Shown here: in pieces, positions 753 through 34,776 of the stretch
Layout of the letters: the number at the start of each line of letters is the position of its first letter
How positions within the stretch are numbered: position 1 is the first letter of the stretch
Assembly: GCA_039801085.1 (NCBI GenBank)
Contig: JBDRTY010000002.1
Span: 319,339 to 383,338, forward strand
Origin: a candidate division WOR-3 bacterium
Lineage (GTDB): Bacteria > Hydrothermota > Tepidihabitantia > Tepidihabitantales > Tepidihabitantaceae
DNA: 64,000 nucleotides
Direction of reading: 5' to 3'
Position numbers and translations under genes: made by a program
Notes under the pieces: model-generated
Database searches by the model: none
Seen by the model: the letters and a program-made list of their open reading frames with translations, nothing else
Told to the model about the DNA's origin: nothing

Positions 753-755
753 GTT

Positions 756-1301: not shown

Positions 1302-1302
1302 T

Positions 1303-1743: not shown

Positions 1744-1748
1744 CAAGG

Positions 1749-2102: not shown

Positions 2103-2104
2103 CG

Positions 2105-3610: not shown

Positions 3611-3611
3611 A

Positions 3612-4100: not shown

Positions 4101-4109
4101 GGAGGCGGA

Positions 4110-5333: not shown

Positions 5334-5356
5334 TAAAGTCCGCGGTGGGATTTAAC

Positions 5357-6808
5357 TTAAGTGAGGTGTGATTTTCGGATATTTAAAGAATATAGTTTTA
5401 AAAGGTGCGGGAACTTTTGCTGGATAATACGAATTCTTCTTCTTAGAGCAAACCGGTCGTTATAACCGAGTAATTTCCAAGCTTCGGACTTTATACCTCC
5501 ACATTTTTTAAGTGCTGCTTCGATGTAAGCAAGTTCCATCTTTGCCAGTTCTTCAGAAATATCGATGCCCTGTTCCAAGATTTCTACCTTTAAAGAATAG
5601 CCAGTGGTTTCGTTCTTGTTCCTTATTTCCATGGGTAAATCATCGATGTTGATGACGCTGCGTTGATTGTAATCGGCATAGATTGCCGCCCGCTCAATGC
5701 AAGATTTTAGCTCTCTAATGTTTCCTGGCCAGTGATAGTTTTGGAGATAGTCGATGGCGCTCGGGTGGATATCTTCACACCTGCTTTTCCCCTTCTGGTA
5801 ATGCTGTCTGAGGAAATATTTTGCCAGAAGCGGTATGTCATCTTTACGCTCTCGCAGAGGTGGAACATAAATTTCTACTGTTTTTAGACGGTAATATAAG
5901 TCTGGTCTAAATTTACCTGCTTTTATTGCATTCTTTAGGTCGATATTTGTCGCGGCTATAATTTGAACATCTAATTTAATTTCATCCGTTCCGCCGACAC
6001 GACAGAATTGTTTTGTATCTAGAAACCGAAGTAACTTTACCTGCACTTCCGGGTCCAAATCCCCAATTTCATCAAGGAACAAAATACCAGTGTCAGCTTT
6101 TTCTAAATAACCGATTTTTCGGCGATCTGCACCGGTGAAAGCACCTTTTTCATGGCCGAACAACTCGCTTTCAACTATGTTTTTCGTAAGAGCTGATATC
6201 GCAAGTGCTACGAAAGGTCCATTCCGTCTTGGATTTGTTTTGTGAATTGTGCGTGCGACGAGTTCTTTCCCTACGCCGGTTTCGCCGGTAATTAAGACCG
6301 AGATTTCCCCGTTGTTGGAGATCATCTGAATAATTTTCTTGATTTCTTTAATTGCTGGGGTGTTGCCAATCAGCTCGGCCGGTTCTAACTGGTGTAATTC
6401 ATCTTCTAGTATTTTTACTTTTTTCTCCAGCCTTTTCTTCTCAAGCGTTCTTTTGATTATATTTTTGAATTCCCAGACAGTAATTTTGTCTTTTTGTATA
6501 AAATCGTCGGCTCCCAGTTTTATTGCCTCAACGGCAGTTTGGATATCGCCGTATGCGGTCATGATGATCACAGGTATGTCTGGATAATAGGTTTTGGTGT
6601 ATTTTAAGAGTTCGATACCATCTTTGTTAGATGGTTTCGTATCATCTAAACGAATGTCAATTAGTGCAATATCAGGCTTTTCTTTCAGTAGTAATGTTCC
6701 TGTGTCAAATGTATGGGCTTTTAGAATGAGATATTGGCTTCCTAATACAGCTGCAAGTGAATTTAAATACTCTTCATTATCGTCAACGAGTAATATTTGC
6801 GGAATCAC
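5357..6808 (-). CDS. NtrC-family sigma-54-dependent response regulator
   Basis: This 483-residue protein has three parts. The first is an N-terminal receiver (DD at 9-10, phosphoacceptor D51, T84, K106). The second is an AAA+ domain with Walker A GETGVGKE (175-182), the sigma-54 contact loop GAFTGA (222-227), Walker B region DEIGD (246-250) and a WPGNIREL arginine-finger region (360-367). The third is a Fis-like helix-turn-helix at about 428-460. All residues needed for sigma-54 activation are present. It is the last gene of the minus-strand arm, 49 bp after the adenosine deaminase fusion. Sigma-54-like promoter elements lie in the intergenic region from which both arms start, so it probably activates its own operon and the divergent one. 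The receiver has a short insertion after D51 that is also seen in the lone receiver at 20084-20458, so both may be read by the same kinase. The role is secure; the target sites are inferred. Confidence 0.93.
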   Translation of the reverse strand: MIPQILLVDDNEEYLNSLAAVLGSQYLILKAHTFDTGTLLLKEKPDIALIDIRLDDTKPSNKDGIELLKYTKTYYPDIPVIIMTAYGDIQTAVEAIKLGADDFIQKDKITVWEFKNIIKRTLEKKRLEKKVKILEDELHQLEPAELIGNTPAIKEIKKIIQMISNNGEISVLITGETGVGKELVARTIHKTNPRRNGPFVALAISALTKNIVESELFGHEKGAFTGADRRKIGYLEKADTGILFLDEIGDLDPEVQVKLLRFLDTKQFCRVGGTDEIKLDVQIIAATNIDLKNAIKAGKFRPDLYYRLKTVEIYVPPLRERKDDIPLLAKYFLRQHYQKGKSRCEDIHPSAIDYLQNYHWPGNIRELKSCIERAAIYADYNQRSVINIDDLPMEIRNKNETTGYSLKVEILEQGIDISEELAKMELAYIEAALKKCGGIKSEAWKLLGYNDRFALRRRIRIIQQKFPHLLKLYSLNIRKSHLT

Positions 6809-6857
6809 TCCAACATGTTACATAATCATCACCAAAAAATCAAGTTAATTTGTGGGG

Positions 6858-9800
6858 TTATAAATTATAATCAATAGGGAAGTAAGGCTCCAATTCTTCC
6901 TGCCAAATGATTTTTTGATATATTTCCTCTTCAACCGCTCGGAGCAGTTCTCTTTTCTCATCTCGACTGATAAAGGCAAATTTAAAAGCGTGTTTAACTA
7001 ATCGGAGCACTTCCCATTTAGATAACCAGAGTTTGTTTTTATTATCATGGGCGTTTTGATAAAGCCGAGCCGCCTCTACAAACTCGTGGGAAAGTGTGCT
7101 GTTAGCGGAAAATATCGGATCATCAGTGTTAATCGTGCAGGGAATACCGTGCTGAATAAAATGAAACAAGGGATAATTTTCTTCGATTAATTGATTGGTG
7201 AGCAGGTTGCTTTTCGGACACAACTCAATGCAAATCTGAAGGTCCCGGGCGAGGTCCATTAAAAATTTATTGTTTCGGAGAGTTAAACCATGACCGATGC
7301 GGTTAGCATGAAGCAGATAAATTGCTTTCCAGATATTTTCCGCTGTTGCGGATTCCCCTGCATGGACAGTGATGGGAATACATAATCGAAAAAGTGGTAT
7401 AAATTCATTAATATAGCGTTCAACATCAGCAGCGGTTTCTATACCCGAAAGGTCAAATCCAACCAGGCGGCTGGGTTTCCATTCATAAAGGAAACTGCTA
7501 GGTGTCAAGGGAGTATCTAATTGATTTTCTTTGAGTAAGTGCAGGATTTCCCGTTGACGGTAGACTACGGTTGCCGCTATTTCCTGCGCAATTTGTTCTG
7601 GGGATTTATGTCTTTTGCCGGAGAATATGAAATTGGGCCAGATAAACCGATGTTGAGTGAAGTATAAATATGCGCTGAAAAGGTCGGCGCCATCAAAAAG
7701 CGCCTGAATTGATTCTTGAAGTATCAGATTTTTTTTGCAATAACCATCTGGGGCAACGCGTAGTTCAGTATAACGAACATTATCGCGCGTTGCTTTTTCC
7801 AAGAAATTGGCGACCGCGATCACAATATTCTCGTAATACTGCAGTTGGACAGAGCCGCAGAATATGTCTGGTCGTAAATAATTTTTAAGGGATCTTTTTT
7901 TGCCTTGCGCCGTTGTTCCGAGGGATAGTAATTGACTAATCAGTCCGGGTTGTTTGGGACTGTTAGCGCTAATAGAAGCGTTAATCTCTTCATAGAACTT
8001 AGTAATATGTTCTCCGTATTCTTGTAAGTTTCCGTTTCCTAGATGAGTGGAAATATTTTTTTGGGCTTTTTGCAGGTGGTCGATAATAACCGGTGGATAA
8101 TCGTTAGTGGAGAATAATAACTTTCTTGACCACTTATTCCAGAAATTTCGAATGTCTTCGCTTGTTTTACCTTCACAAACACCTAAGAAAACAATAAAAG
8201 TGCAAATAAATTCATCCCGATCAAGTTCGATACTACCTTTATTCAACTTCTGACAATACCGATAATAATGATAACTGAGAAAAAGCTCTTCAGGGGTAAA
8301 ATTATTTTCCAGTTGTTCTGGCCATTTATTCTGATTTTCATGAAGAAACTTGTTTAGCCACTTCCAATAAACATTGTTATTCTGCCCATTAGATTTTTGA
8401 GCGATTGAAATCAACTCATTTTTGAATTTTTCTAATATATCGTTTAAATTTATATTTTCACCGCACAGTTGCAGGTTTTCTTTCCAGTAATCAAGCGGGT
8501 TGATGTTTGTTGAACGAAAGCGATGAAAAAGGACATTTAAAGAGAGATGGAACACTAGGTCAACATCCATTGTACCACCCAGGTGACAGTGGAGCTCTGC
8601 TTTAGGTATTTCTTTTATCCACTGGTGCGCCAAACGGGTGGCAAGTGTATTTTTGTAATAAGATTCTGAGCTACTGACGTCTAAAAATGGTTCGGTCTGT
8701 AGTTTTCGACGCAGATAATTGGGCAGTTGATATAATTTGCTAAAATTACGCGCTTTGCCAATTGAACTTCGCTCGATTTGTGCGAGTATATGTCTACTTC
8801 GTTCCAGTTTAGCAATTAATGCCGGCAACTGGTATATTCTGTGTTTATATACATAACCTAAAGCACCTTCTTCCAGCGCCCGTTCAATGTTCTCAATATT
8901 CAGACTTAATGAAAGAACAACGACATCAAAAATTGCCGGACGATCATGTCCTTTTAAATTACGATTGACCGCGGTTCGGAATTTTATCAACTCTCTGATA
9001 ATCCTGTTCCCGTTGTTATAATTTCCCAAAAGCAAGTCAACGGCGATGAAATGGTACTGGAATTTTTTAGTCTGACTATCAAACAGGTCGATTTCTTTTT
9101 CTTCTTTAGGGGACGATGAATCATTCGAGGATGATATTTTTCTTACGCGCAACTTGCCTTGATTTTTATACATTAAAGTTAAAAATTCTCTGTCGATGAA
9201 TTTTCTCCATTCGTTTTCAGTCGTTATATGAATATTTACATTCTGCCCGAATTCGTTAACGATTTTTCTTAAGGGTTCTACTAAATTATCCGGGTTGTCA
9301 TCAATTACAAGTATGCTGAGATTTTTGATTTCACGGGAATTGACTTTAATACAATTTTGGCGGTCAAGGTTTTCAAGAAATGTCAGATATTCACGATAAC
9401 CCTTGTTCGAGGTTTCTTGTTCCATCTGTCTTAAATAATCGTGTTCAATTTTGGCTGGTGTGTTGTTGTTTATAGGTCCCCATAGCTCAGGAGGATATGA
9501 GTTAATGGCTAATCCATTTACCGGCATTTGCAGTAGCAATTCGTTAATCTTTTGTAGCAGATTGTAGGGGGAGGCGGTTGCTGCCTTACCCTTTTCCTCT
9601 AGGTATTTACGGAGGATACAGGTTCTATTATAAATTGATTGCGCATGGTCACCATGTGGTAAGGTTTCTAAGGAGAAGAAAAGTATCCGATTTCTGTCGG
9701 GTATATTTTCAATTATGTCCTTTATTTTTACTTCGTTTTCATCCCGACAGTGGTCACATAGGAAAACGATGGTAACATTAATGTCACTTTCAATTTCTAT

Positions 9801-9908
9801 CATTAAATTATTAAGAACATTATTTAATTCATCGAGCCCGAGTTTTAAGCCACAATTATTCCTATTTTGATTGCAGGGGAAAACTAATTCAAACCTAGGA
9901 TTGCTCAT
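6858..9908 (-). CDS. Receiver domain-adenosine deaminase fusion protein
   Basis: This is a 1016-residue protein. Residues 1-190 are unassigned. Residues about 197-370 read as a receiver domain: VIDD at 201-204, FIAVD with phosphoacceptor D291, S333 and K355, and a charged insertion near 250-280. The C-terminal part is an adenosine/AMP deaminase-type metal hydrolase: HxH at 440-442, HAGE at 849-852 (metal His and catalytic Glu), GHG at 872-874 and TDDP at 928-931. The metal and catalytic residues all appear intact, so it should be active. About 230 residues (470-700) are inserted after the first strand, much more than in housekeeping adenosine deaminases; from memory the RADAR defence deaminase RdrB also carries a large insertion, but homology is not shown. 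The start overlaps the preceding gene by 14 bp. I infer phosphorylation-controlled deamination of an adenine nucleoside or nucleotide; the substrate is unknown. Confidence 0.85.
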   Translation of the reverse strand: MSNPRFELVFPCNQNRNNCGLKLGLDELNNVLNNLMIEIESDINVTIVFLCDHCRDENEVKIKDIIENIPDRNRILFFSLETLPHGDHAQSIYNRTCILRKYLEEKGKAATASPYNLLQKINELLLQMPVNGLAINSYPPELWGPINNNTPAKIEHDYLRQMEQETSNKGYREYLTFLENLDRQNCIKVNSREIKNLSILVIDDNPDNLVEPLRKIVNEFGQNVNIHITTENEWRKFIDREFLTLMYKNQGKLRVRKISSSNDSSSPKEEKEIDLFDSQTKKFQYHFIAVDLLLGNYNNGNRIIRELIKFRTAVNRNLKGHDRPAIFDVVVLSLSLNIENIERALEEGALGYVYKHRIYQLPALIAKLERSRHILAQIERSSIGKARNFSKLYQLPNYLRRKLQTEPFLDVSSSESYYKNTLATRLAHQWIKEIPKAELHCHLGGTMDVDLVFHLSLNVLFHRFRSTNINPLDYWKENLQLCGENINLNDILEKFKNELISIAQKSNGQNNNVYWKWLNKFLHENQNKWPEQLENNFTPEELFLSYHYYRYCQKLNKGSIELDRDEFICTFIVFLGVCEGKTSEDIRNFWNKWSRKLLFSTNDYPPVIIDHLQKAQKNISTHLGNGNLQEYGEHITKFYEEINASISANSPKQPGLISQLLSLGTTAQGKKRSLKNYLRPDIFCGSVQLQYYENIVIAVANFLEKATRDNVRYTELRVAPDGYCKKNLILQESIQALFDGADLFSAYLYFTQHRFIWPNFIFSGKRHKSPEQIAQEIAATVVYRQREILHLLKENQLDTPLTPSSFLYEWKPSRLVGFDLSGIETAADVERYINEFIPLFRLCIPITVHAGESATAENIWKAIYLLHANRIGHGLTLRNNKFLMDLARDLQICIELCPKSNLLTNQLIEENYPLFHFIQHGIPCTINTDDPIFSANSTLSHEFVEAARLYQNAHDNKNKLWLSKWEVLRLVKHAFKFAFISRDEKRELLRAVEEEIYQKIIWQEELEPYFPIDYNL

Positions 9909-10875
9909 CTCGGGTATATTGTTTTAATTTTTCTAAAAGATCGTTGAGCAGTCGGAACCAGTCTGAGAAATTACCGATGGGGTGATTTATTATACAGGCA
10001 AGTTCATCCCAGCCGTCATAGTTAAGTATTTTTTTAACATCTTCTAATGTTGGGGTATCTGGGTGTTCAAGAATCTCCATAAATTTTGCCAGCTTGGATT
10101 CATTATCGAGGCGATATCCTCCTGAGGTTTGTTTTTCAAAACCGCACAGCAAAATGATTTTATCCCAAACGGGTTGCCATTCTTTTTGACATTCGACGAG
10201 CAATAGTTCTTCAATATTATTTAGCAATTCCCCCAATTCCTTGAGTTTTTGTTTAAATTGCGTAACCTTTATTGTTTGTTGAAGGAAAGCAATAGGATTA
10301 TCTTTTGAAATTTCCGGGTAATCATATATCTCTGCCAGTCGTTCTAAAGACAGAGCTGTCGGGGCAAAAAGGTTGATAAGTCGGTGTTTGAGCACATTGA
10401 AAGAATTAACTCTTTTTTGAAAAAAGACAGTAAAAATTGTGTCAAAATCTGCATTCGGGTTCAACTTGGTTTCCTCTCTTATTATCTTGCTAAATATTTT
10501 TTTGTTCTCTTTTACAAGTGAGTAATCACGTATAACTTTAACTTTATGTTTTAAACAATCAAATTTTTGTTTTAAAATATTGTGAGTAGCAATGAATACT
10601 TGGTGATCTTCCGAGTTTAGTTTTTGTGCCAGAGGCTCTAGATTTTTATTTAGATTTTCGATTTTCATTGTGTTTACCCATATGATGGCATTTTCTTCGA
10701 TGCGAATATCACTCGCATCGTCTGTAAAATTGATACGAAATTTATTATCGATCTTGTAAGCAAAATTTTTATTGCTATTTCTATTATCAAACCATGCCTG
10801 CCATTCTGGGATATTACCGATAAACCTGTCAGATTTTATGTCCGGTGAAGTTATTATTACCTGAATTTTAGCCAT
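9895..10875 (-). CDS. Unknown protein in the sigma-54 locus
   Basis: I do not recognise this 326-residue protein. It has no signal peptide or membrane helix. The N-terminal ~130 residues alternate short hydrophobic strands (IQVIITS, AIIWVNT, HQVFIATH, VKVIRDYS) with charged stretches, which suggests a small alpha/beta domain, perhaps a degenerate receiver or Rossmann-like fold without acidic active-site residues. The remainder is helical and rich in Leu, Lys and Glu (about 200-240), ending in a short hydrophilic tail. It sits 9 bp after the kinase ATPase gene and overlaps the deaminase fusion by 14 bp, so it is made with them and may be an adaptor or regulator of the kinase or the deaminase. 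AT-rich codon use fits its neighbours. Confidence 0.7.
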   Translation of the reverse strand: MAKIQVIITSPDIKSDRFIGNIPEWQAWFDNRNSNKNFAYKIDNKFRINFTDDASDIRIEENAIIWVNTMKIENLNKNLEPLAQKLNSEDHQVFIATHNILKQKFDCLKHKVKVIRDYSLVKENKKIFSKIIREETKLNPNADFDTIFTVFFQKRVNSFNVLKHRLINLFAPTALSLERLAEIYDYPEISKDNPIAFLQQTIKVTQFKQKLKELGELLNNIEELLLVECQKEWQPVWDKIILLCGFEKQTSGGYRLDNESKLAKFMEILEHPDTPTLEDVKKILNYDGWDELACIINHPIGNFSDWFRLLNDLLEKLKQYTRDEQS

Positions 10876-10884
10876 CGTCTGATT

Positions 10885-12984
10885 TTACTCAATTTTTGTG
10901 TTTAAGGCAACTTGGACCAGAAAGAATTTTGAAGGCTCGGTAGTCAGATACTGCTGAACGATGTTGAAGTCCAGAAACGGTGCATTGTCCGGGATATCAC
11001 CGGTAGTCTTTCCCCTTCCGGAATGAACGATGACATAGGGGATTCTAGTTTTAAACATACGGACAGTCTCTTCAAGATTTTTGCCCAACATTGCGGCGAT
11101 TTCCTTAAGTTTACTGGCGTGGATTAGAAGGATGTGAACCGGCACGTCTTTTTCTAACTCGAACCGGCTGTTATTAACATGCTGAAAATAACGCATTTCA
11201 ACATCCACCATTCTATTGCTGTCTGATTCTGCGTTATCGATCAGCCAAATTGTTTCATTGCCGTCGTCCCCCTTTTTCACACTCCGGGCTATATATATGC
11301 CCATCCAGTAGAGTTTTTCAACGAGATTAACATTCTTATCTTCTACCGCCTTTAATTTTACCGCCTCTTGTGCAATCCGTTCATCAATAACCAGCACATT
11401 CATCAAAGCCGACTCAACGAACTGACGGATGATCAGTCCTCCCAGTCTCTCAGGATCAATGTGGAAAAGGAAGTTGAAAAAAGGGTCACTGTAAGAAGCA
11501 AACTGATAAAAGTAAAGTTGGAGTTTGGTGCGGTCCATGCTCTGAAGTTGACCGAGGATGTTATGATGACGCAAGAGGAGAATCTTAAGGTATTTGTTAT
11601 TCAAAATTTCATTTATTCCCACCACTGTTTTAGGAAACTCAATTTTGATTTGATAATTTATGTTATTTATATTTTGGGTCCATTTTTTAGATCTGTCAAC
11701 GTCTTCAAAATAGATTACCATGTGATATTTTTTGTCTTTAATCAGGTCTTTAAGATGCAGGTCATACGCTTGCAGCAGAAATTTGTCGGGGTGGGTTGGC
11801 TGTAGATCCAGATTTCCTTTTATCTGTTTCTGGGGTAATTTCAGAGTTTCGGGAAGATTTACATTGGCATCAAGATAAAGGAGGCTGTAATTGGTGTCGC
11901 TGTCATTTATTATATCATCAGGGGGAATTACCCTTATCCCCTCAACTTCCCACTTGTTCCGATCTAGGATATTGTTGATTACATTTTGATTCAATATAGC
12001 GAGTAACTGTCTGGACTTTTCCAATCGGATAATGTAGCAGAATCTTTTTTTATCATCGCAGTTATTCCAGATTCCTTCCGGACATTCGCGGACTTCGATG
12101 TAATCGGGATTTTCAGTATCTACCTCCTTCAGCTGAGCATTACTTAAGAATGCGGCGCAGACTTTTATTTCCTTCAAACCCCAATTCCCCGGGGTGACTT
12201 CCCCCGTCAGGGGGTCAATTACCTTCTGGCAGATTTTATTGTTAAGAAAGTTCACAATGTTTACCAATGTTTTTTCCTCCCGCACCTTTTGAGCAGAATA
12301 GTCGGTGCTGGCACTCAGGAGAAGGTAAGCGAATCTGCTGTCGCGGGGGAAACTGCTGTCTAACAGTTCAGACGAAGGGAAAATAACGATTCGCAACTCC
12401 AACTGGTCATTTTGAGATTTATTATGGCGGTGTTTAGCAGCATTTCTGAGCAGACCTTTAACAAGGGAATGGAAAGCCTGAACTGCAAGGTCAGCACCCC
12501 GTGCCCAGACCAGAAAAGGTTTGGTATTTTCATACTCACAGCTGAATTTAATGTCCCTGCTTGGTTCCAGCAGGGCAATGGTAAAGTCAACCAGATCCGG
12601 ATCTTCGATTATCCTTTCTTGGTTGGCACTATTTTTAATTCTGATTTTGGGTAATACCCAGGTTATTCCTTTATTATTTTCCGCATAGCCGTATTTTATT
12701 TTTATTTGCGAAAGGGAGATGAAGTCGGAAAGATTGAGGAAGTGCATGACCAGAGGATTTTGGAACAGAGGCTGGATGAAGAATTGATGAAATTCAAGCC
12801 CAAGCCCCCATCCAGGCCATCTGGTTGCCATTCGGGCGATAAAATTCTCCTGTTTATGGCGTTGGATTGAGTGTTGGATATAGGCGCGTCTCAAGATTTC
12901 ATAAAGCAGCAGTTGCCGATCAGTTTTTTTTGTGCAATGGAGGTCTTGATAGTAATTTGACGTCAAATTACCTTTTACTTCCAT
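10885..12984 (-). CDS. Histidine kinase-like ATPase subunit (HATPase_c, second half of a split kinase)
   Basis: This 699-residue cytoplasmic protein begins with helices (about residues 20-95, including IARMATRWPGWG) that look like the second helix of a kinase dimerisation hairpin. A GHKL ATPase domain follows, with an N-box (LLRNAAKHR, N181 and K184), a later strand (AYLLLSAST) and a G-box-like GNWGLKEIKVCAAFL (about 266-280). The ATP-lid glycines are fewer than in classic kinases. Residues 350-699 are unassigned and contain no transmembrane helix. The start codon overlaps the stop of the preceding gene by 10 bp in the -1 frame. The phosphoacceptor histidine region is at the end of that preceding gene, so the two genes together look like one kinase. 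Confidence 0.72.
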   Translation of the reverse strand: MEVKGNLTSNYYQDLHCTKKTDRQLLLYEILRRAYIQHSIQRHKQENFIARMATRWPGWGLGLEFHQFFIQPLFQNPLVMHFLNLSDFISLSQIKIKYGYAENNKGITWVLPKIRIKNSANQERIIEDPDLVDFTIALLEPSRDIKFSCEYENTKPFLVWARGADLAVQAFHSLVKGLLRNAAKHRHNKSQNDQLELRIVIFPSSELLDSSFPRDSRFAYLLLSASTDYSAQKVREEKTLVNIVNFLNNKICQKVIDPLTGEVTPGNWGLKEIKVCAAFLSNAQLKEVDTENPDYIEVRECPEGIWNNCDDKKRFCYIIRLEKSRQLLAILNQNVINNILDRNKWEVEGIRVIPPDDIINDSDTNYSLLYLDANVNLPETLKLPQKQIKGNLDLQPTHPDKFLLQAYDLHLKDLIKDKKYHMVIYFEDVDRSKKWTQNINNINYQIKIEFPKTVVGINEILNNKYLKILLLRHHNILGQLQSMDRTKLQLYFYQFASYSDPFFNFLFHIDPERLGGLIIRQFVESALMNVLVIDERIAQEAVKLKAVEDKNVNLVEKLYWMGIYIARSVKKGDDGNETIWLIDNAESDSNRMVDVEMRYFQHVNNSRFELEKDVPVHILLIHASKLKEIAAMLGKNLEETVRMFKTRIPYVIVHSGRGKTTGDIPDNAPFLDFNIVQQYLTTEPSKFFLVQVALNTKIE

Positions 12985-13940
12985 CCCAAGCGCTTTATGA
13001 TTTCCTCACAAAATGTATCAAGGCGGTTCTGGATCCCGGTTTCAATATGAGAGTCGTAGTGAGAGAGATTCCGAGCCATAATCGCTGCGACTGCGGACCG
13101 CCGGGCATGTTTCCGGAGTTCATAGCTCAGTGTGCTGTAAAACAGTCCTAACAGTGCCTTCTGGATTACTATATGGTTAAAATTAAAAAGAAAAGACAAG
13201 AAATTCTCGTGCTCAGAAAAAGCTTCAAATTCTGTAATTATAATGATAGCAAGATAGTATACATCATAAAGATGTATAGGCAAATAGAGTAGGAGATCGA
13301 ATCCCAGTGCCATATGTATGTCAAAGATCGTTAAACAATATTTGAGCGTGTGCTCTATTTTGGTTGTTTTATAATTTTGGGATGAGTCCCCGCTTGTAAA
13401 TTTTTTCACGAAATCGGCCTCTAATTCATATTTACTAGCTAGCTGAATAATCGCACTATCTATTTGGTCCCTGTTTTGATTATTATTTATCATTCCTATT
13501 ATTTTACAGTAGAGGTCGATGTAAGTGGTTGTATTCTTATAAAAATAGATATCAATATATTTTTTGAGGAAATTCCATTTTTCGGAATTTGCTACCGCCA
13601 AGATGCTATTCTTGGGCAGAAGGAAATCGGATAGTGATGGCAAGTTTTCTAGATTTAGGACAATTCGGTTATAAAAAGAATCGATCCCTCCAAAAAAGAA
13701 TTTGTTTATTTTCGATAAATTATCTTGAAATTTATCTTTTTCAGTAGAAGGTTCAGGAACGTAATAAAACACTCTATTGAACACCGGTTCGCTGATGTTT
13801 AAGGCTTGCCGTAGATCGTCCGCTTTAATGGTTAGGACGAAATAGATCTTTTTTCCTTTATTGTAATTAATTCTATTTATGAAATCTTTCGTTGACTCGG
13901 CTATTTTTACTAGCCAGCTGGGATAGTAATCCTGATTCAT
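12975..13940 (-). CDS. Sensor/dimerisation subunit of the split histidine kinase
   Basis: I take the ATG at 13940, which overlaps the stop of the methyltransferase gene as ATGA; an in-frame ATG at 13970 with a GGGGGG stretch upstream is an alternative. The protein is 321 residues from 13940. The first ~270 residues are an unassigned, probably helical sensor-like region without clear membrane segments. Near the C-terminus is AIMARNLSHYDSHIETG (about residues 287-303), which resembles the H-box (MARNxSHNIGSH) of a group of soluble histidine kinases; the histidine in LSH is the likely phosphoacceptor. The protein stops shortly after this helix, and the second helix and ATPase domain are encoded by the overlapping next gene. 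Either a naturally split kinase or a frameshift could explain this. Confidence 0.65.
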   Translation of the reverse strand: MNQDYYPSWLVKIAESTKDFINRINYNKGKKIYFVLTIKADDLRQALNISEPVFNRVFYYVPEPSTEKDKFQDNLSKINKFFFGGIDSFYNRIVLNLENLPSLSDFLLPKNSILAVANSEKWNFLKKYIDIYFYKNTTTYIDLYCKIIGMINNNQNRDQIDSAIIQLASKYELEADFVKKFTSGDSSQNYKTTKIEHTLKYCLTIFDIHMALGFDLLLYLPIHLYDVYYLAIIIITEFEAFSEHENFLSFLFNFNHIVIQKALLGLFYSTLSYELRKHARRSAVAAIMARNLSHYDSHIETGIQNRLDTFCEEIIKRLGWK

Positions 13941-15514
13941 TTTTCCGGTTTCAGTTTTCTGTAAAGACATACCCAGTACCCCCCGGATTCGGAATCCGAT
14001 TCTTTGTAGATAAATCCATCCGGCACAAATCCATATTTGCGCAGAGTTCTGAGATAAGGATCGGGGGCGTGAAGTATGTAGTTGATTAATTCTTGACGAG
14101 TAAAGATTCTTCTTTCTTTAGGTGCGAGTCGGGTCAAGATTACGGCATAGTCAAGATTAAGTAATTTTGCCAGTTTTAACCGATAAATGAGCATGTCCTG
14201 CCACAAACCCTGCTGGCGATATTTTTGCATAACACAGGCGGAAACAAGATGTAGCGCATTGCCTCGGGGATCACTGGTGCGCGAAATATCGGCATCCGGA
14301 TAATTATCTAATTCCATCCATCTTGCCATTGCTAGCTGTCTTAATTCTCCTGTCGGTTTAAATTTGATGCGCTGGGAGGTAGCAAAACCAACCATTGTCC
14401 CATCAAGGTTGAAGGCGCCGACACAGCCGGCACTGAAATTTTGCAGCCTCGATGCCAGATTATCCCGCGAAGCCTGTAGCTGCTTGGGCCAGCAGATTTT
14501 TTCCAGTTTTAATACCGAATTCAGGTACTCCGGGCCGATGTTTTTTATTAAAAATGCTCGACGATTCTGAATTTTTCCCTTGTTGATGCCGACAATAAGA
14601 AGATTTGTAAGGAAACGGTATTTCCGGCTGAAATTTTTACAGAACTGGAGAAGCTCTCTGGTATTATACAAATTCTGTGGTAAAAGACGATAGTAATCAT
14701 CTAGGAGAATGGTGGGTTCATCAGCATAGTCGATACTGTAACCACTCCAAGCAGGCGGTAGTAACACAAAATACCGGAGGGTGTATTTATTGCTAAGCGA
14801 CCGTAACATTTTTTTATAGGAAAGATACTCCCTGCGCATCGCCGTGTTTTTTATAAATTCGGGGTTCATAGTTCCGTTTATAATTCCCCGCCGGCCTGGT
14901 TGCGAATCCCCTAATGAATATGCAAGTAAACCGAACATGGCATTTGCAGGACGGGAGTACTGACTTAGGTGTTTGAAAAACTGGAAAACCGCCGATATAC
15001 CGAGAGGGCCTCCAAAGTTAAATACTAAGCCACTGCCCGGGGGCAGGGGAACATAGGGCGGATTTGCGAGCAGAATATCAAAGGTCTGCTTGTGCAAGGT
15101 TAAACGCGGGCAGAGATATGGATTAAAGCCGGCATTAGCGTCTACCTTGCAGGGGATAATTAGATTGCGAAGTCCAAACGATTTAATTCTTTCTACTAGG
15201 TAATCATAGGTGCGCGGGTCCTTCTCTGTTGCTACGATTTTTGAAAAATAATTTTTATAATGCCTTGCAAAATATATTGCATAAGTACCTATTCCTGCAA
15301 ACAGATCAAGCATCTTCAGAGCGGCTGCCGGGGGACCAAAGTGTGCGGTTAGATACTCCTCCAAGATAAAGGCACTTTGCCAGAATTGACTGGCAAATTT
15401 CAATGGGTTACAGAACTCTGCGGGTAGTCCCGGCACGGCGGTTAATTTTCTGAGGAAAGACCGATTTTCCATCTGTCCCCGAGGGTCCGAATTTTTACGG
15501 ATAGACTTGGACAC
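13937..15514 (-). CDS. SAM methyltransferase-GNAT acetyltransferase fusion
   Basis: The GTG at 15514 has a GGAGGG site 8 bp upstream inside the preceding gene, hence this start; the protein is 525 residues. Residues 65-260 form a class I SAM-dependent methyltransferase with motif I DLFAGIG (70-76), an acidic loop (ATEKDP) and the catalytic NPPY (151-154) used by N-methyltransferases acting on DNA, RNA or glutamine side chains. Residues about 330-520 resemble a GNAT acetyltransferase (VSACVMQKYRQQGLWQDMLIYRLKLA region, with an RQQG acetyl-CoA loop). No DNA target-recognition domain is evident. It lies between the substrate-binding protein (20-bp overlap) and the kinase genes. The target is unknown: it could modify a protein of this locus, or a small molecule. 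Confidence 0.75.
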   Translation of the reverse strand: MSKSIRKNSDPRGQMENRSFLRKLTAVPGLPAEFCNPLKFASQFWQSAFILEEYLTAHFGPPAAALKMLDLFAGIGTYAIYFARHYKNYFSKIVATEKDPRTYDYLVERIKSFGLRNLIIPCKVDANAGFNPYLCPRLTLHKQTFDILLANPPYVPLPPGSGLVFNFGGPLGISAVFQFFKHLSQYSRPANAMFGLLAYSLGDSQPGRRGIINGTMNPEFIKNTAMRREYLSYKKMLRSLSNKYTLRYFVLLPPAWSGYSIDYADEPTILLDDYYRLLPQNLYNTRELLQFCKNFSRKYRFLTNLLIVGINKGKIQNRRAFLIKNIGPEYLNSVLKLEKICWPKQLQASRDNLASRLQNFSAGCVGAFNLDGTMVGFATSQRIKFKPTGELRQLAMARWMELDNYPDADISRTSDPRGNALHLVSACVMQKYRQQGLWQDMLIYRLKLAKLLNLDYAVILTRLAPKERRIFTRQELINYILHAPDPYLRTLRKYGFVPDGFIYKESDSESGGYWVCLYRKLKPEK

Positions 15515-16619
15515 CGGTTGTTCCCTCCACCTTTTTTACCACTAGGTCTATAACCCACTCACCGACCGGGTCGTACTTATAGAAACCTGCAACGCCTTGG
15601 AAATCGCTGAAATTCTCAAGTCCGGTCTTAATTTTTTGAGGAACAGTGCCGTACTTGCTGAATATTGGGGTAAGGAGGTTGAATAGTGCATCGAATTCAA
15701 TGACGGAATTCCAATTCGGGAGCGCCCCGAAGCGGGTTTCAAATTTTTTTACTATCGCTAATGTTAATGTATCAGTGACGGATGAAGCGTCAAATGCAGG
15801 GGTAGTGTAGTAAGTACCTTCCAATGCTTCCTTTGCAAGGCTGATGGTAGGTTCGACAGAAAAGTTATAGCTTCCAAGTATGTAGCCTTTGTACTGCAGT
15901 TCCTTTGTTTGCTTGAGCGCAATTCCGTTAGCTTTACCATATCCGTAGATATATATCGCTTCCGGCTTGGCAGCAATTAATCTCCTAATAGACGCCCGGA
16001 AGTCAGTTCCGTCTTTTTCAAATGCTTCGGCTTTAAGAATTTGTCCTCCCAAGCGGTGAAAATGCTGACTGAACATTTTCATTGCTGCTTCACCAAAGGC
16101 ATCGTTAATGTAAAAAATGGCGATTTTTCTTATTCCCATTTTATTAAATGCAAACTCTGCCATTTTTAAAGCCTCATGTTTACTGGTAGGAAAATTTCTG
16201 AAAACCCAGTCACTAAGAGAGGTAATTTCAGGATGGCCGCAGTTGGCGAACAGAACTACCCCTTTCTGCTCCGCTTGATTATAAATCGCCATACTTGGAG
16301 AGCTCATTACTGTAATGATCAAGGGCACACGATCAACCGTTACGAGTTTGTTGAATGCACTTACAGTTAATTTCGGTTCATTCTGATCATTTTCGTAAAT
16401 AAGCTGGAGTTTCTTACCGTTGATTCCGCCTCGTGAATTTATTTCTTCCACCGCCAAGTCAAGGCCAATTTTGTGCTGCTGTGCAATTTCAGCGGCACTC
16501 CCAGTAAGAGGTAAAATTACGCCGATCTTTATTGCTTGGGGTTCTTTCTTGCAATCTATTTGACCTAGTACCGTCAAAACTGCGGTCATAAGTATGCCAA
16601 TTTTTATTCCATTGTGCAA
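15495..16619 (-). CDS. Liv-type ABC transporter substrate-binding protein
   Basis: This 374-residue protein starts at a TTG (16619) with AGGAGG 5 bp upstream. A hydrophobic export signal (residues 5-20) is followed by a cysteine (C23) that could be lipidated, although LGQIDC is a poor lipobox. The rest is a type I periplasmic-binding fold of the leucine/isoleucine/valine family (Peripl_BP_6): IKIGVILPLTGSAAEIAQ near 31-48, GLDLAVEEINSRGGINGKKL near 52-71, and YINDAFGEAA in the middle. It faces the livHMGF-like genes across the divergent promoter region, so it is probably their binding protein. Ligand specificity cannot be read from sequence; members of this family also bind amides, aromatics and nucleobase-like compounds. 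Confidence 0.88.
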   Translation of the reverse strand: MHNGIKIGILMTAVLTVLGQIDCKKEPQAIKIGVILPLTGSAAEIAQQHKIGLDLAVEEINSRGGINGKKLQLIYENDQNEPKLTVSAFNKLVTVDRVPLIITVMSSPSMAIYNQAEQKGVVLFANCGHPEITSLSDWVFRNFPTSKHEALKMAEFAFNKMGIRKIAIFYINDAFGEAAMKMFSQHFHRLGGQILKAEAFEKDGTDFRASIRRLIAAKPEAIYIYGYGKANGIALKQTKELQYKGYILGSYNFSVEPTISLAKEALEGTYYTTPAFDASSVTDTLTLAIVKKFETRFGALPNWNSVIEFDALFNLLTPIFSKYGTVPQKIKTGLENFSDFQGVAGFYKYDPVGEWVIDLVVKKVEGTTGVQVYP

Positions 16620-16663
16620 GCTTTCCTCCTTTTATTTGTTTGGCTTCATACAATTCTATAGTA

Positions 16664-16679
16664 AGCAAATTGCGTTCCT
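16664..16679 (-). promoter_or_regulatory. Candidate sigma-54 promoter for the minus-strand arm
   Basis: On the minus strand the sequence reads AGGAACGCAATTTGCT. It has the GG and GC pairs at the -24/-12 spacing and matches the consensus TGGCACGNNNNTTGCW except at positions 1 and 4. A start of transcription about 12 bp further would leave a short leader with the AGGAGG site of the substrate-binding protein gene. An NtrC-type activator encoded in the same arm supports it. Confidence 0.55.
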
Positions 16680-16725
16680 TGTCAACAACCACACAAAAGC
16701 TTTCTGAAAAGCCAGCCGATGGGAT

Positions 16726-16758
16726 TTGATCGTCACAATCAAGTGATAACAGAATCAC
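16726..16758. promoter_or_regulatory. Two inverted repeats between divergent sigma-54 promoters (candidate activator sites)
   Basis: TTGAT-N7-ATCAA (16726-16742) and GTGAT-N6-ATCAC (16743-16758) lie directly next to each other. They sit 47-62 bp upstream of the minus promoter and 41-57 bp upstream of the plus promoter. Dyads of this size in such a place are typical of enhancer sites for NtrC-family proteins. That the activator at 5357-6808 binds here is an inference. Confidence 0.4.
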
Positions 16759-16798
16759 CTTGCGTTCATTTCTGAATCATCTTTTCCTTTGCACACGC

Positions 16799-16814
16799 TG
16801 GCACATAATTTGCA
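16799..16814 (+). promoter_or_regulatory. Sigma-54 promoter for the liv/tubulin arm
   Basis: TGGCACATAATTTGCA fits the sigma-54 consensus TGGCAC-N5-TTGCW with the exact GG/GC spacing; only the G after TGGCAC is replaced by A. Transcription would start near 16825, giving a leader of about 17 nt before the ATG of the first permease gene. It stands at the head of the nine-gene plus-strand arm. Confidence 0.75.
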
Positions 16815-16841
16815 GATGTAGTTTAAAATAGGTTGAATGTG

Positions 16842-17717
16842 ATGTTACTGCAGTTTATTGCCAATGGTTTGGTTGAGGGAGTTGTTTTAGGAATGTTTGC
16901 TTTGGGGTTTAGTATAATTTATAATTCAAGCAGAGTATTTAATTTCGCACAAGGCGGGATATTTACTGTCGCTGGGTACATAGTGTACCTCTCTTGGAAA
17001 ATTTTAAATCTGCCAATAGGCGTTGGAATAATGCTGGCGATCATAGGTGCGATTGGACTAGGGATGCTGCTTGAGAGATTGATTTTCTATCCTTTATATA
17101 GGCAACAGTCTTCACCTGCCATTGTGATTCTAAGCAGTTTAGGTAGTTATTTGGTCATTGTTAACTTGATTGTTCTTATATTAGGTAATGAGACTAGGGT
17201 TCTGAGGTCTGGGGTAGAGGAAACGTTGAAATTAGGGGGGGGCATATTAACCAAAATTCAGGTTTTTGGGGGGTGCACTGCACTGATTCTAAGTGTTCTT
17301 ACAATTATTTTGCTAAGACATACTAGGTTTGGTATAACGCTGAGGGCACTGGCAGATAACTCATCATTGATTGCAGTGCTTGGACTTGGTATTCAGCGGT
17401 TACGACTGCTGAGTTTCGCTTGGGGGTCGATGTTAGGGGGAGTGGCAGGTGTGATTGCAGCATTTGATGTCGGCATCGATCCGCACGTTGGCGGGTCAGC
17501 AGTGTTAATCGGCGCCGTGGCGACAATCCTCGGTGGTATCCGAGTCATTGAAGCAGCATTCTTTGGGGGGGTGATTATCGGAATTACTAAAAACTTGGCT
17601 GCTGGGCATATTTCGGCCCGTTGGGAGTCGGCAGTTACATTTTTTATACTGCTGATTGTGCTTTTGCTTCGGCCTCAAGGAATACTGGGAAAACGCGGTA
17701 GACTGGAGGAAATTTGA
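16842..17717 (+). CDS. livH: LivH-like ABC transporter permease
   Basis: I take the ATG at 16842, 9 bp after an AGG, over the in-frame TTG at 16833. The protein is 291 residues with about eight membrane helices. It has the branched-chain amino-acid permease pattern, for example the N-terminal GLVEGVVLGMFALGFSIIY and FNFAQGGIFTVAGYIVY segments and a cytoplasmic loop with RALADNSSLIAVLGLGIQ that contacts the ATPase. It forms the inner-membrane channel together with LivM. The stop overlaps the TTG start of the next gene. A G8 tract lies at 17235-17242. The family is certain; the gene symbol reflects family only, since the transported compound is not known. Confidence 0.88.
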   Translation: MLLQFIANGLVEGVVLGMFALGFSIIYNSSRVFNFAQGGIFTVAGYIVYLSWKILNLPIGVGIMLAIIGAIGLGMLLERLIFYPLYRQQSSPAIVILSSLGSYLVIVNLIVLILGNETRVLRSGVEETLKLGGGILTKIQVFGGCTALILSVLTIILLRHTRFGITLRALADNSSLIAVLGLGIQRLRLLSFAWGSMLGGVAGVIAAFDVGIDPHVGGSAVLIGAVATILGGIRVIEAAFFGGVIIGITKNLAAGHISARWESAVTFFILLIVLLLRPQGILGKRGRLEEI

Positions 17718-18583
17718 GTTACTTACTCCACATACTGATTATGTGTTGTATTTATCTTATTCTCGCGCAGTCACTTAATTTGCTTGTGGGGTATACTGGT
17801 TTGCTTTCAATGGCCCATGCAGCATTTTACGGGCTCGGTGCTTATATATCAGCACTGCTAATGGTCAGGGCGGGCTGGAACTTTTTCGCTACTATTCCTG
17901 TGGCAATGGTCGGAGCAATGATACTGGCAGTGATTGTGGCATTACCGTCACTTCGGTTGCGGGGAGATTATTTTTTACTTGCGACGTTGGCTTTTCAGAG
18001 TATCATCTTTTACCTTCTCTATAACTGGATATCATTTACGCGGGGTCCATATGGGATTGCGGGTATCCCCAAGCCAGAATTTCTCGGTTTTAAGATCACT
18101 AATGTACCGGAATATTTTCTGATGAGTGCACTGATCACGGGTTTAATTTTTCTGATAGTAGGTACACTTTGTTCGTCTCCTTTTGGTCGGGTGCTTAAAT
18201 CAATCAGGGAGGATGAGTTTGTCGTTGAGGCGCTGGGTAAGAACACAAGAGTTTTTAAAATTCAGGCGTTTATGACTGCTGGTGGTCTGGCAGCGGTTGC
18301 CGGTTCGCTATATGCTGCCTATGTGGCTTATATTGATCCTACCAGCTTTACTTTTGATGAATCGGTATTCATCCTTTCGATAATAATAATTGGTGGGACC
18401 GGTAATCTGAAAGGTCCAGTAGTTGGGACGCTACTGATGCTCTTTTTGCCTGAACTTCTGAGATTTTTAAGGGTTTCTGATCCCGTAGCGGCAAATGTCC
18501 GGCAAATTATTTACGGAGCTCTCCTTGTCGTGCTGATGCGAATTCGACCTCAGGGGATTTTAGGTGACTACCAGTTCGACTAA
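17714..18583 (+). CDS. livM: LivM-like ABC transporter permease
   Basis: This 289-residue membrane protein starts at a TTG overlapping the LivH stop, with GGAGGA upstream at 17705-17710. It carries the LivM pattern: SLNLLVGYTGLLSMAHAAFYGLGAY near residues 20-44, SLRLRGDYFLLATLAFQ near 80-96, and the ATPase-contact loop SIREDEFVVEALGKNT near 163-178, followed by the GGTGNLKGPVVGT segment. It pairs with LivH to form the permease. A frame overlap with the LivG gene (GTG start at 18564) shows coupled translation. Confidence 0.88.
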   Translation: MSYLLHILIMCCIYLILAQSLNLLVGYTGLLSMAHAAFYGLGAYISALLMVRAGWNFFATIPVAMVGAMILAVIVALPSLRLRGDYFLLATLAFQSIIFYLLYNWISFTRGPYGIAGIPKPEFLGFKITNVPEYFLMSALITGLIFLIVGTLCSSPFGRVLKSIREDEFVVEALGKNTRVFKIQAFMTAGGLAAVAGSLYAAYVAYIDPTSFTFDESVFILSIIIIGGTGNLKGPVVGTLLMLFLPELLRFLRVSDPVAANVRQIIYGALLVVLMRIRPQGILGDYQFD

Positions 18584-19337
18584 TGAAATGATACGGACCG
18601 AAGGGCTGGTAAAGAGTTTTGGCGGGCTGAGAGTGATAGATGATGTTACCGTTACGTTTTACCGTGGCAAGATTACCGGTTTAATCGGACCCAATGGAGC
18701 GGGCAAAACTACCCTTTTTAATATTCTCAACGGTTTCATAAAACCGGATGAGGGGGTAATTTATCTAGGGGATATCAGAATTGACTGTTTAGCCCCGTTT
18801 CAGGTTGCCCAGTTGGGAGTGGGTAGGATGTTTCAGGATACGAGAATTTTTGCCCAAATGAGTGTGTTGGACAATGTGTTGGTAGCGATAAAGGGTCAGA
18901 GTGGTGAGACCCCTTTTAATTTATTTGCTAAATATCCCAAAATCCAGCAGGAAGAAAAGGAAAATCGGCAAACTGCGATTCGCTGGTTGGAATTTGTGGG
19001 GTTAAGTGATAAAATGCAAATCCGTGCCGAAAATCTTTCCTACGGGCAACAGAAACTCTTGGCGCTTGCCCGATTGCTTGCCGGGAATAGTAGCGTATTG
19101 CTACTGGATGAACCAACTGCTGGGGTGGATCCAGGGTTTATTCCTGTGCTTCTTGATTTTTTAAAAAGACTGAAGGAAGATGGTAAAACTATAATTCTAA
19201 TAGAGCATAATATGACCGCAGTGCTTGCGGCGTGTGACTGGGTATATTTCATGGATGAAGGGAAAATTACAGCGTTCGGTTTGCCAGAAGAAGTGCTATC
19301 TGATCCTACAGTCAGAAATGCCTATCTGGGTTTATGA
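18564..19337 (+). CDS. livG: LivG-like ABC transporter ATPase
   Basis: This 257-residue ABC ATPase has Walker A GPNGAGKTT (42-50), the LivG-type FQDTRIF Q-loop region (about 92-98), the signature LSYGQQKLLALARLL (about 160-174), and Walker B LLLDEPTAGVDP followed by the H-loop IEHNM. The GTG start at 18564 is favoured by an AGGGGA stretch upstream, and no ribosome site precedes the later in-frame ATG at 18588. It overlaps LivM by 20 bp and LivF by 4 bp. It energises the Liv-type transporter. Confidence 0.9.
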   Translation: MTTSSTNEMIRTEGLVKSFGGLRVIDDVTVTFYRGKITGLIGPNGAGKTTLFNILNGFIKPDEGVIYLGDIRIDCLAPFQVAQLGVGRMFQDTRIFAQMSVLDNVLVAIKGQSGETPFNLFAKYPKIQQEEKENRQTAIRWLEFVGLSDKMQIRAENLSYGQQKLLALARLLAGNSSVLLLDEPTAGVDPGFIPVLLDFLKRLKEDGKTIILIEHNMTAVLAACDWVYFMDEGKITAFGLPEEVLSDPTVRNAYLGL

Positions 19338-20053
19338 GTCAAGCATCTGATTTGATAAAGATCGATGATATTCATGCTGGTTATGGCAGAAAAAAAATTC
19401 TATTTGGAGTTAGTATGGTGATTCACGAGGGGGAGGTGGCGGTGCTTATCGGTCCTAACGGTTCGGGAAAATCGACACTTCTTAAGGTTATTGGTGGACT
19501 TCTTCAACCATGGCAGGGAAGGGTTTACTTCAAGGGTCGCGACATCACTCAGATTTCAACGGATGCAAGAGTCAGACTTGGTTTAGGTTATTTTCTTCAA
19601 GGAGGTGAAATTTTTAGGAGTTTGAGGGTGCAGGAAAATTTGGAGGTCGGGGGTATGGGTTTGAGTCGGATCGATTTCAATCGAGCGCGCAAAGAAATTT
19701 TTGATTTGTTCCCGCAGTTAAGAGCATATCAAAACCGGCGTGCCGGGGAACTTTCTGGAGGAGAAAAACAGGCACTCGCTTTAGCCATGGTTCTGCTGCG
19801 TCGGCCGCAACTGCTTTTACTTGACGAACCATCTGCTGGACTGGCGCCGGCGCTGGTGGAGGCAATGATTAAAAAGATTGAAAATGTTAGAAAGATTTTG
19901 GGCACGACGATTTTGTTAGTAGAGCAGAATGTCCGCGAGGCACTGAGAATCGCCACTACCGTTTTTATAATTAAAAAGGGGGTAATTCTAAGCCAAGAAG
20001 AACCTGATGTAGTGCTGGAAAAGGGAAAATTGGTTGAGGTTTTTTTTCGTTGA
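19334..20053 (+). CDS. livF: LivF-like ABC transporter ATPase
   Basis: This 239-residue ABC ATPase has Walker A GPNGSGKST (40-48), signature LSGGEKQALALAMVLL (about 138-153), Walker B LLLLDEPSAGLAP and H-loop VEQNV. It is the second ATPase of a Liv-type importer. The ATG overlaps the LivG stop (ATGA). In place of the usual YVPQGR segment of LivF it reads YFLQGGEIF, a small deviation at the Q-loop. The next gene, a receiver, starts 30 bp later. Confidence 0.9.
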   Translation: MSQASDLIKIDDIHAGYGRKKILFGVSMVIHEGEVAVLIGPNGSGKSTLLKVIGGLLQPWQGRVYFKGRDITQISTDARVRLGLGYFLQGGEIFRSLRVQENLEVGGMGLSRIDFNRARKEIFDLFPQLRAYQNRRAGELSGGEKQALALAMVLLRRPQLLLLDEPSAGLAPALVEAMIKKIENVRKILGTTILLVEQNVREALRIATTVFIIKKGVILSQEEPDVVLEKGKLVEVFFR

Positions 20054-20083
20054 CAACAGGAGAAATTTATTATCTAATAAATT

Positions 20084-20458
20084 ATGGAAAGAGTATTAAT
20101 CGTCGAAGACTCCATTGAGTATGCTGAGGCATTGAAAAACATTCTTAAATTTGATTATGATGTGGTTATTGCTACCAATTTAGAAGAAGCCAAGGAGAAG
20201 GCAAACGGAAATTTCGGCGTTTTTCTAGTGGATATCCGATTAAATGAGTCAGATCCAAACAACGCTGATGGTTTGTTGTTTCTCAAATGGGCTAAACACA
20301 AGTTTTGCGAAGTTCCAGTGATAATGATGAGCGCCTACCGCGAGTTTGAGGAACAGAAAGATTGTATTGCGCAAATGGGTGCAGCATTATTTCTTAAAAA
20401 ACCTATAAGCATAAAGGATTTGAAAGAAGGTCTAAGATCAGTATTACGCAAAACTTGA
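20084..20458 (+). CDS. Single-domain response regulator (lone receiver)
   Basis: This 124-residue protein is a receiver domain only: acidic E8-D9, phosphoacceptor D50 in FLVDIRL, a serine in MMSAY and a lysine in LFLKKPIS. It has no output domain, like CheY or Spo0F, so it may act by protein contact or as a phosphorelay step. After D50 it carries the insertion NESDPNNADGLLFLK, which closely parallels DDTKPSNKDGIELLK in the NtrC protein of the opposite arm; the two receivers probably share a kinase. It lies between the transporter and vWA/tubulin genes and may link them to the signal. Confidence 0.9.
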   Translation: MERVLIVEDSIEYAEALKNILKFDYDVVIATNLEEAKEKANGNFGVFLVDIRLNESDPNNADGLLFLKWAKHKFCEVPVIMMSAYREFEEQKDCIAQMGAALFLKKPISIKDLKEGLRSVLRKT

Positions 20459-20496
20459 CAGAGTAAGAATGTTTTATTAATTTTTTTTAGATTTTT

Positions 20497-21633: not shown

Positions 21634-21635
21634 AT

Positions 21636-24755: not shown

Positions 24756-24771
24756 AAGCACTGTTCACTTA

Positions 24772-29593: not shown

Positions 29594-29626
29594 ATGACCA
29601 ATATATACCGAAGAATTGATTTTGGG

Positions 29627-30634: not shown

Positions 30635-30636
30635 AG

Positions 30637-31224: not shown

Positions 31225-31225
31225 T

Positions 31226-33442: not shown

Positions 33443-33447
33443 ATTTT

Positions 33448-34749: not shown

Positions 34750-34776
34750 AGTTTAAAATTATTAATTAAAGGTAAA

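Follow-up and report, generated by a model that had tools for sequence, protein, structure and literature searches.

The window analysed here, 64,000 nucleotides of a contig from a candidate division WOR-3 bacterium, contains a 24.3 kb island with two divergent operons, one of which encodes REC-ADA, a protein with a putative receiver domain and a deaminase domain of the adenosine deaminase type. The minus-strand operon encodes a LivK-type binding protein, a methyltransferase-GNAT protein, three proteins of 331, 699 and 326 amino acids, REC-ADA and a sigma-54 response regulator. The plus-strand operon encodes the transporter components LivHMGF, a stand-alone receiver, a VWA-domain protein, a tubulin-like protein (Tubulin_2), a 675-amino-acid protein and a DEAD-like protein with a zinc-protease-like end. 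The island is missing from the sister species G107 and G108; in G107 the counterparts of window positions 1-5333 and 29630-41857 lie just 59 bp apart, and nearly the same junction, of about 150 bp, is present in G108. Together with its guanine plus cytosine content of 39.4%, compared with 53.7% and 55.0% in the two flanks, this empty site indicates that the island is horizontally acquired.

The only domain that Pfam detects in REC-ADA is A_deaminase (residues 666-994, E = 6.5e-39). The deaminase motifs are complete (HCHLGG at residues 440-445, HAGE at 849-852, GHG at 872-874 and TDD at 928-930, extended to TDDP at 928-931), and the metal ligands and catalytic residues of the adenosine/AMP deaminase superfamily are kept (H440, H442, H849, E852, H873 and D929). 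The PADLOC model CARF_ADA matches REC-ADA with E = 1.8e-81 at model positions 208-601 only, which represent the deaminase minus the CARF domain, and the closest sequences in the PDB are of the Cad1 type (9C67, 9EBT, 9UBL, 8Z3K and 8Z3P), with ordinary adenosine deaminases ranking below them. A maximum-likelihood tree was calculated from 35 deaminases, comprising REC-ADA, a homologue from the WOR-3 genome G130, three CRISPR Cad1 proteins and 30 stand-alone enzymes; the three Cad1 are all encoded near Cas10, two being full length as judged by CARF_ADA matches from position 1 and the third being truncated where its contig stops. REC-ADA and the G130 homologue form a clade (support 100/99) which is sister to, and not nested in, the three Cad1 (100/100), and the 30 stand-alone deaminases are placed apart. 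Furthermore, the glycine after HCHL in REC-ADA, which a first-pass annotation of this sequence had overlooked, completes an HLGG motif that is confined to Cad1 and REC-ADA among the homologues with a readable motif; the stand-alone deaminases in this set mostly contain HLDG, HLEG or HIEG, and one contains HLRG. In TaqCad1, Gly264 stands for the ribose-hydroxyl-binding Asp of mouse adenosine deaminase (ADA) and contacts ATP (PMC12669630). Among the sampled sequences, the REC-ADA deaminase is Cad1-like by these comparisons, with a receiver in place of the CARF domain and a swap that could have run in either direction.

REC-ADA shares with Cad1 (CARF-ADA), an ancillary effector of type III CRISPR systems, its sister deaminase, the HCHLGG, HAGE and GHG motifs and the arrangement of an N-terminal signal-receiving module followed by a C-terminal deaminase. 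It differs from Cad1 in having a receiver and an N-terminal domain instead of CARF, an insertion of ~200 amino acids after HxH, an Asp at the position of Asn549 and a location outside CRISPR loci. No cas genes were recognised in the island and no CRISPR array was found within the window, and a type III CRISPR locus of the host with Cas10 and two arrays lies on another contig, C1 (L103, G000 C1:183000-201999, positions 6196-16359); REC-ADA was on these grounds rejected as a member of a CRISPR locus.

Residues ~196-372 of REC-ADA are identified as a receiver domain by motifs and profile comparisons. The segment contains ILVIDDN ... FIAVDLLL ... VVVLSLS ... EEGALGYVYK, the order of classical receivers, and it retains the five phosphotransfer residues in order (the acidic pair D203/D204, the phospho-acceptor D291, S333 and K355). 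The Pfam model Response_reg does not match REC-ADA, because an insertion of ~50 residues (~229-281) separates the alpha1/beta2 part from beta3. Two receiver profiles were built with the query left out throughout. Against the first, made from five response regulators of other host loci, two island receivers and seven receivers of homologous loci, the receiver segment scores 14.2 bits (shuffle maximum 7.7), and against the second, to which two receivers with similar insertions were added, residues 190-390 score 22.3 bits (9.0 for the best of 1712 scored shuffles). In addition, hhalign comparison of the single REC-ADA sequence with the first receiver alignment gives P = 5.2e-6 and a probability of 86%, and BLASTP aligns residues 270-386 with the receiver of a 621-amino-acid protein of G147 (29% identity over 120 amino acids, E = 1.6e-5), which is an undisputed receiver (Pfam E = 5.6e-9). 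Structure prediction, put forward by the first-pass annotation as a check on the receiver fold and the deaminase pocket, was carried out with AlphaFold and yielded a mean predicted local distance difference test score (pLDDT) of 47 for residues 190-419 and of 33 for the full length with a two-row alignment; the models are poor because a single truncated homologue could be supplied. The model of the isolated receiver region has, at pLDDT 47, a strand/helix alternation compatible with a receiver, and a Foldseek search with this low-confidence model of residues 190-419 returned nothing significant (best E 0.07), with receivers among the weak matches.

The distance from H442 to H849 in the deaminase domain is 407 residues, compared with roughly 200 in Cad1 or mouse ADA (~205 from H243 to H448 in the Cad1 of PMC11645235) and 344 from H154 to H498 in Escherichia coli RdrB (PMC9994260). 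The large insertion described by the first-pass annotation is thus real. The same annotation was reminded by it of RdrB from the RADAR system, which deaminates ATP and dATP (PMC9994260). RdrB has the adenosine-deaminase fold and, like REC-ADA, extra sequence that separates HxH from the third His, and the position of the REC-ADA insertion resembles that of RdrB insertion 2 (PMC9994260); the resemblance is one of position, with no link in sequence, and the relative is the deaminase domain of Cad1. Neither RdrA nor RdrB was matched by PADLOC at E<1 among the seven proteins of the operon, so that membership of REC-ADA in the RdrB family was rejected for want of a profile match; unlike RdrB, it also has a receiver, and no RdrA-like partner was found in its operon. 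The reading frame and all residues named beforehand (receiver D203/D204, D291, S333 and K355; deaminase HCH, HAGE, GHG and TDDP) lie where the annotation had placed them, and profiles, motifs and tree uphold its description of a receiver fused to an intact deaminase unlike housekeeping enzymes.

Table 1. Features of the island and of the REC-ADA gene (positions are those of the window)
Feature	Positions	Strand	Basis
Whole island, judged to be acquired	5334..29629		Empty site in sister genome, GC contrast
NtrC-type sigma-54 response regulator	5357..6808	-	Response_reg and Sigma54_activat; 45-47% identity to G120 and G072 counterparts
REC-ADA (receiver-deaminase) gene, 1016 amino acids, ATG start	6858..9908	-	Open reading frame, Pfam A_deaminase, PADLOC CARF_ADA
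REC-ADA Cad1-like deaminase domain, residues ~425-1000	6909..8636	-	Pfam, PADLOC, motifs, tree
Insertion within the deaminase, residues ~455-665, between HxH and third metal His	7914..8546	-	H442-H849 spacing; best Pfam stretch from 666
REC-ADA putative receiver, residues ~196-372, insertion ~229-281	8793..9323	-	Profile against shuffles, hhalign, BLASTP
REC-ADA N-terminal domain, residues 1-195	9324..9908	-	Without Pfam match; low-confidence predicted alternating strands/helices
326-amino-acid protein, candidate phosphotransfer protein	9895..10875	-	Weak BLASTP to G072 369- and G120 397-amino-acid proteins; alignment
699-amino-acid protein, putative HATPase half of divergent histidine kinase and C-terminal domain	10885..12984	-	Matches to G147 proteins
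331-amino-acid protein, C-terminal putative kinase phospho-His helix SAVAAIMARNLSH	12975..13970	-	43-53% identity to H-box regions of G147 and G072 kinases
Methyltransferase-like and GNAT-like protein, 525 amino acids	13937..15514	-	Pfam TRM5-TYW2_MTfase 4.7e-8, weak Acetyltransf_1
LivK-type periplasmic binding protein	15495..16619	-	Peripla_BP_6 1.1e-49
Sigma-54 promoter-like site AGGAACGCAATTTGCT upstream of livK	16664..16679	-	10/12 consensus positions
Sigma-54 promoter-like site TGGCACATAATTTGCA upstream of livH	16799..16814	+	11/12; sole such site in the 64-kb window
LivH, LivM, LivG, LivF transporter genes	16833..20053	+	BPD_transp_2 and ABC_tran matches
Stand-alone receiver, system-specific family	20084..20458	+	Response_reg 1.6e-14; 46-50% identity only in G072, G120, G130
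VWA-domain protein	20497..21633	+	Pfam VWA 1.2e-8; VWA protein in G120 locus too
Tubulin-like protein (Tubulin_2)	21636..24755	+	Pfam 1.1e-41; G120 counterpart 7.1e-24
675-amino-acid protein, no family named	24772..26799	+	
DEAD-like helicase, C-terminal zinc-protease-like region	26792..29593	+	Pfam DEAD 3.9e-8, DUF2268 4.1e-4; weak BrxHI

The island contains no kinase detectable by Pfam, whose kinase models match neither the 331- nor the 699-amino-acid protein. Jointly, these two proteins align with the single-chain kinases of other loci. Residues 21-298 of the 699-amino-acid protein match the kinase of G147 (E 1e-13) and residues 482-694 match a 415-amino-acid protein of the same genome (E 2e-13), and a genome search with the G147 kinase matches the 699-amino-acid protein in turn (E 4e-9). 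From H-, N- and G-box-like motifs recognised by eye, the homologous loci and the context, we infer that the pair forms a divergent split histidine kinase, an assignment that is well motivated. Pfam detects seven receivers in the host genome, two of them in the island, and the divergent pair would be the natural partner of the island receivers because the other five each adjoin a conventional kinase. The kinase, which is one polypeptide in the homologous loci, is split here soon after the phospho-His helix, and the two reading frames differ and overlap by 10 nucleotides. No plasmid homologues were found for the 331- and 699-amino-acid proteins or for the G147 kinase. The adjacent 326-amino-acid protein contains a conserved His in LKHRL...P and is a candidate that may pass the phosphate on.

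Both sigma-54-like sites are located, one per strand, within the 213-bp intergenic region between the divergent livK and livH genes. In simulations, two such sites in this region have a P of 0.0011, and one site with at least 11/12 consensus positions has a P of 0.0034. The related G072 locus also contains an 11/12 site upstream of livK (P 0.0006), and the G120 locus has a 10/12 site close to where its stand-alone receiver gene begins. Both operons of the island are therefore probably driven by its sigma-54 regulator.

The stand-alone receiver family marks four WOR-3 loci, those of the window, G072, G120 and G130 (46-50% identity, with the next best at ~34%). The G072 locus encodes LivK, a methyltransferase, a homocitrate-synthase-like protein, a kinase, proteins of 369 and 462 amino acids, a dihydroorotate dehydrogenase-ferredoxin-Maf protein, a protein with a receiver and a cyclase-like region, a receiver, Liv proteins and a sigma-54 regulator. 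Its cyclase-like region was judged by eye only, and the 462-amino-acid protein has a weak receiver-like segment that does not score above shuffles. In the G120 locus, LivK is accompanied by a radical SAM aminomutase-like (lysine-aminomutase-like) protein, a kinase, a 397-amino-acid protein, a sigma-54 regulator, a receiver-HD protein, Liv proteins, a receiver, two dCTP-deaminase-like proteins, Tubulin_2 and a VWA protein. The short G130 contig carries the deaminase homologue, which is 52% identical to the C-terminal part of REC-ADA, a 150-amino-acid protein, a receiver and LivHM. Furthermore, an Opp transporter, a radical SAM protein, a kinase, a sigma-54 regulator and receiver proteins are encoded together in G147, outside WOR-3. 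The chassis of these loci is conserved and the enzymes are exchanged, and several of the variable enzymes are, by family assignment, nucleotide-acting (Cad1-like, REC-HD, dCTP-deaminase-like and Maf).

Several further details of these loci were recorded. The G072 fusion (L034, 6431-8425) joins a dihydroorotate-dehydrogenase-like domain to a ferredoxin and a Maf nucleotide pyrophosphatase, and the tandem dCTP-deaminase-like genes of G120 (L058, 3090-4026) lie between the stand-alone receiver and the tubulin-like gene. The receiver-HD protein of G120 (L057, 7699-10437) resembles HD-CE proteins and CARF-HD effectors through weak matches only (HD-CE and CARF7-CARF_HD); its enzyme is not that of REC-ADA, and it is possibly another effector of CARF type that has come to follow a receiver. 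Two small proteins (L016, 1836-2288; L034, 4278-4751), homologous to each other and with HHHH close to the C terminus, adjoin the stand-alone receiver and could have a phosphotransfer or metal-binding role.

With somewhat better than even confidence, we interpret the locus as a horizontally acquired two-component conflict island in which phosphorylated REC-ADA deaminates an adenine nucleotide. We infer the trigger, the flow of phosphate, the substrate, activation rather than inhibition of the enzyme and a purpose in defence, and likewise the activity of REC-ADA itself. The divergent kinase, made up of the 331-amino-acid phospho-His half and the 699-amino-acid ATPase half, would be activated by a cue, which may be a small molecule that binds to LivK; a small-molecule cue is favoured because each complete locus has a transporter and amino-acid-type enzymes next to the binding protein. 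Phosphate would then move to several receivers, possibly via the 326-amino-acid protein. The sigma-54 regulator would raise transcription of both divergent operons and thereby amplify the island, and phosphorylation of D291 would switch on the deaminase. REC-ADA would convert an adenine nucleotide, most likely ATP and possibly dATP or AMP, into its inosine form, leading to growth arrest or a block of a parasite. The first-pass annotation had suggested a phosphorylation-switched nucleoside or nucleotide deaminase, and a nucleotide-acting output switched in this way is retained as the likely reading; nucleotide corruption would probably be set off by a kinase signal and not by a CRISPR messenger. 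The purpose could be antiphage defence or else cell-cell signalling.

The choice of ATP as substrate rests on the kinship with Cad1; both Cad1 and RdrB convert ATP to ITP (PMC11645235, PMC9994260). Several observations weigh against the interpretation as a nucleotide-deaminating conflict island, the first of which concerns this substrate. In TaqCad1, Asn549 stands in place of the catalytic Asp and the N549D exchange abolished ATP deamination (PMC12669630), and REC-ADA carries an Asp, D930, at this position. Asn at this position is not diagnostic, as many stand-alone deaminases have NTDN and the CRISPR Cad1 of G286 has SDD; D930 is therefore not decisive against ATP, and because of it dATP, AMP or another nucleotide could be the substrate. 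Antiphage systems do not usually include an ABC transporter or biosynthetic genes of the amino-acid type. The complete REC-ADA architecture occurs in one genome only, the G130 copy ending at a contig edge before the receiver region. The AlphaFold models, being of low confidence, lend structural support neither to the receiver fold nor to an open pocket, and the split of the kinase gene could be natural, a sign of decay or a sequencing indel.

Some of these observations would fit a role of the island in nutrient or cell-cell signalling in place of defence. LivK and LivHMGF would then sense or import a signal that resembles an amino acid and is produced by the enzymes encoded nearby, and the deaminase would adjust purine pools or make a purine signal. 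A substrate-binding protein and an ABC transporter adjoin a small-molecule enzyme in every complete locus, namely the methyltransferase-GNAT protein in the window, the methyltransferase and homocitrate-synthase-like proteins in G072, the lysine-aminomutase-like radical SAM protein in G120 and the radical SAM protein with Opp in G147. However, the CARF effectors of type III CRISPR systems are closest to the deaminase and, by weak matches, to the HD output, tubulin/VWA modules occur in predicted conflict systems (PMC7159879) and the islands are sporadically distributed, and we regard such a signalling role as unlikely, if a serious contender. That the phosphorelay is inoperative is improbable: the receiver might serve oligomerisation instead of switching, or the kinase might have decayed, leaving the deaminase constitutive or silent. 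The different frames and overlap of the kinase halves and the failure of the standard Pfam receiver model would agree with this, whereas none of the five phosphotransfer residues is lost and the remaining reading frames of the island are open and of plausible full length. We give very little credence to REC-ADA being an ordinary deaminase for adenosine or AMP salvage whose regulation by phosphorylation is incidental. Its TDD is that of canonical ADA and its catalytic residues are all kept, but the tree groups it with Cad1 away from the 30 stand-alone deaminases sampled, HLGG replaces the ribose-hydroxyl-binding Asp of canonical ADA (PMC12669630) and its gene has no recognised purine salvage genes as neighbours.

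The effector of Detocs is reportedly a receiver fused to a purine nucleoside phosphorylase (PNP); no PNP domain was found among the island proteins scanned. In outline, the REC-ADA island would resemble Detocs in linking a two-component system to a nucleotide-destroying effector. Detocs consists of three genes with a PNP effector, and the island has a deaminase, a sigma-54 regulator, an ABC transporter, a stand-alone receiver and VWA and tubulin genes. The first-pass annotation considered that a phosphorylation-switched nucleoside or nucleotide deaminase would be a new kind of two-component output; this wording is too strong, because Detocs provides a functional precedent in which a two-component system acts through an enzyme destroying adenine nucleotides (PMC11249213). 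The island also has adjacent tubulin-like and vWA genes in common with the GTPase/tubulin/vWA conflict systems of Kaur et al. 2020 (PMC7159879), from which it differs in that no GAP1-N GTPase, MoxR or HSP70 gene was recognised and in being driven by a receiver and a putative histidine kinase.

More broadly, and more tentatively than for the island itself, the four loci may represent an undescribed modular class of conflict system, in which a phosphorelay that is mobile, under sigma-54 control and equipped with a transporter-based sensor of its own, perhaps a self-made signal and several receivers is combined with interchangeable nucleotide-corrupting effectors (Cad1-like deaminase, HD, dCTP-deaminase-like and Maf), some with relatives elsewhere that answer CRISPR cyclic oligoadenylates; we consider this conceivable, with the balance somewhat on the side of doubt. 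The REC-ADA island suggests that type III CRISPR systems have, in their ATP-corrupting deaminase, a portable effector which evolution has connected both to cyclic oligoadenylates and to a histidine-kinase signal, with REC-HD as a possible second case. Whether immune sensors and effectors are interchangeable can thereby be tested directly. The Detocs principle of two-component-triggered nucleotide destruction would furthermore be extended to an uncultured phylum, in a larger system with transcriptional amplification and multiple outputs.

The full REC-ADA sequence used as query had no match in the genome contig collection. With REC-ADA and its WOR-3 homologue from G130 together as query, the sole match in that collection is the already known G130 homologue, and the same pair had no match among viral contigs. 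Plasmid and phage matches to REC-ADA are, as far as annotated, ordinary adenosine deaminases. No description of a receiver-deaminase fusion was found in the open-access literature searched, which misses most subscription papers. Outside the island, ARAGORN predicts a selenocysteine tRNA at window positions 46422-46516.

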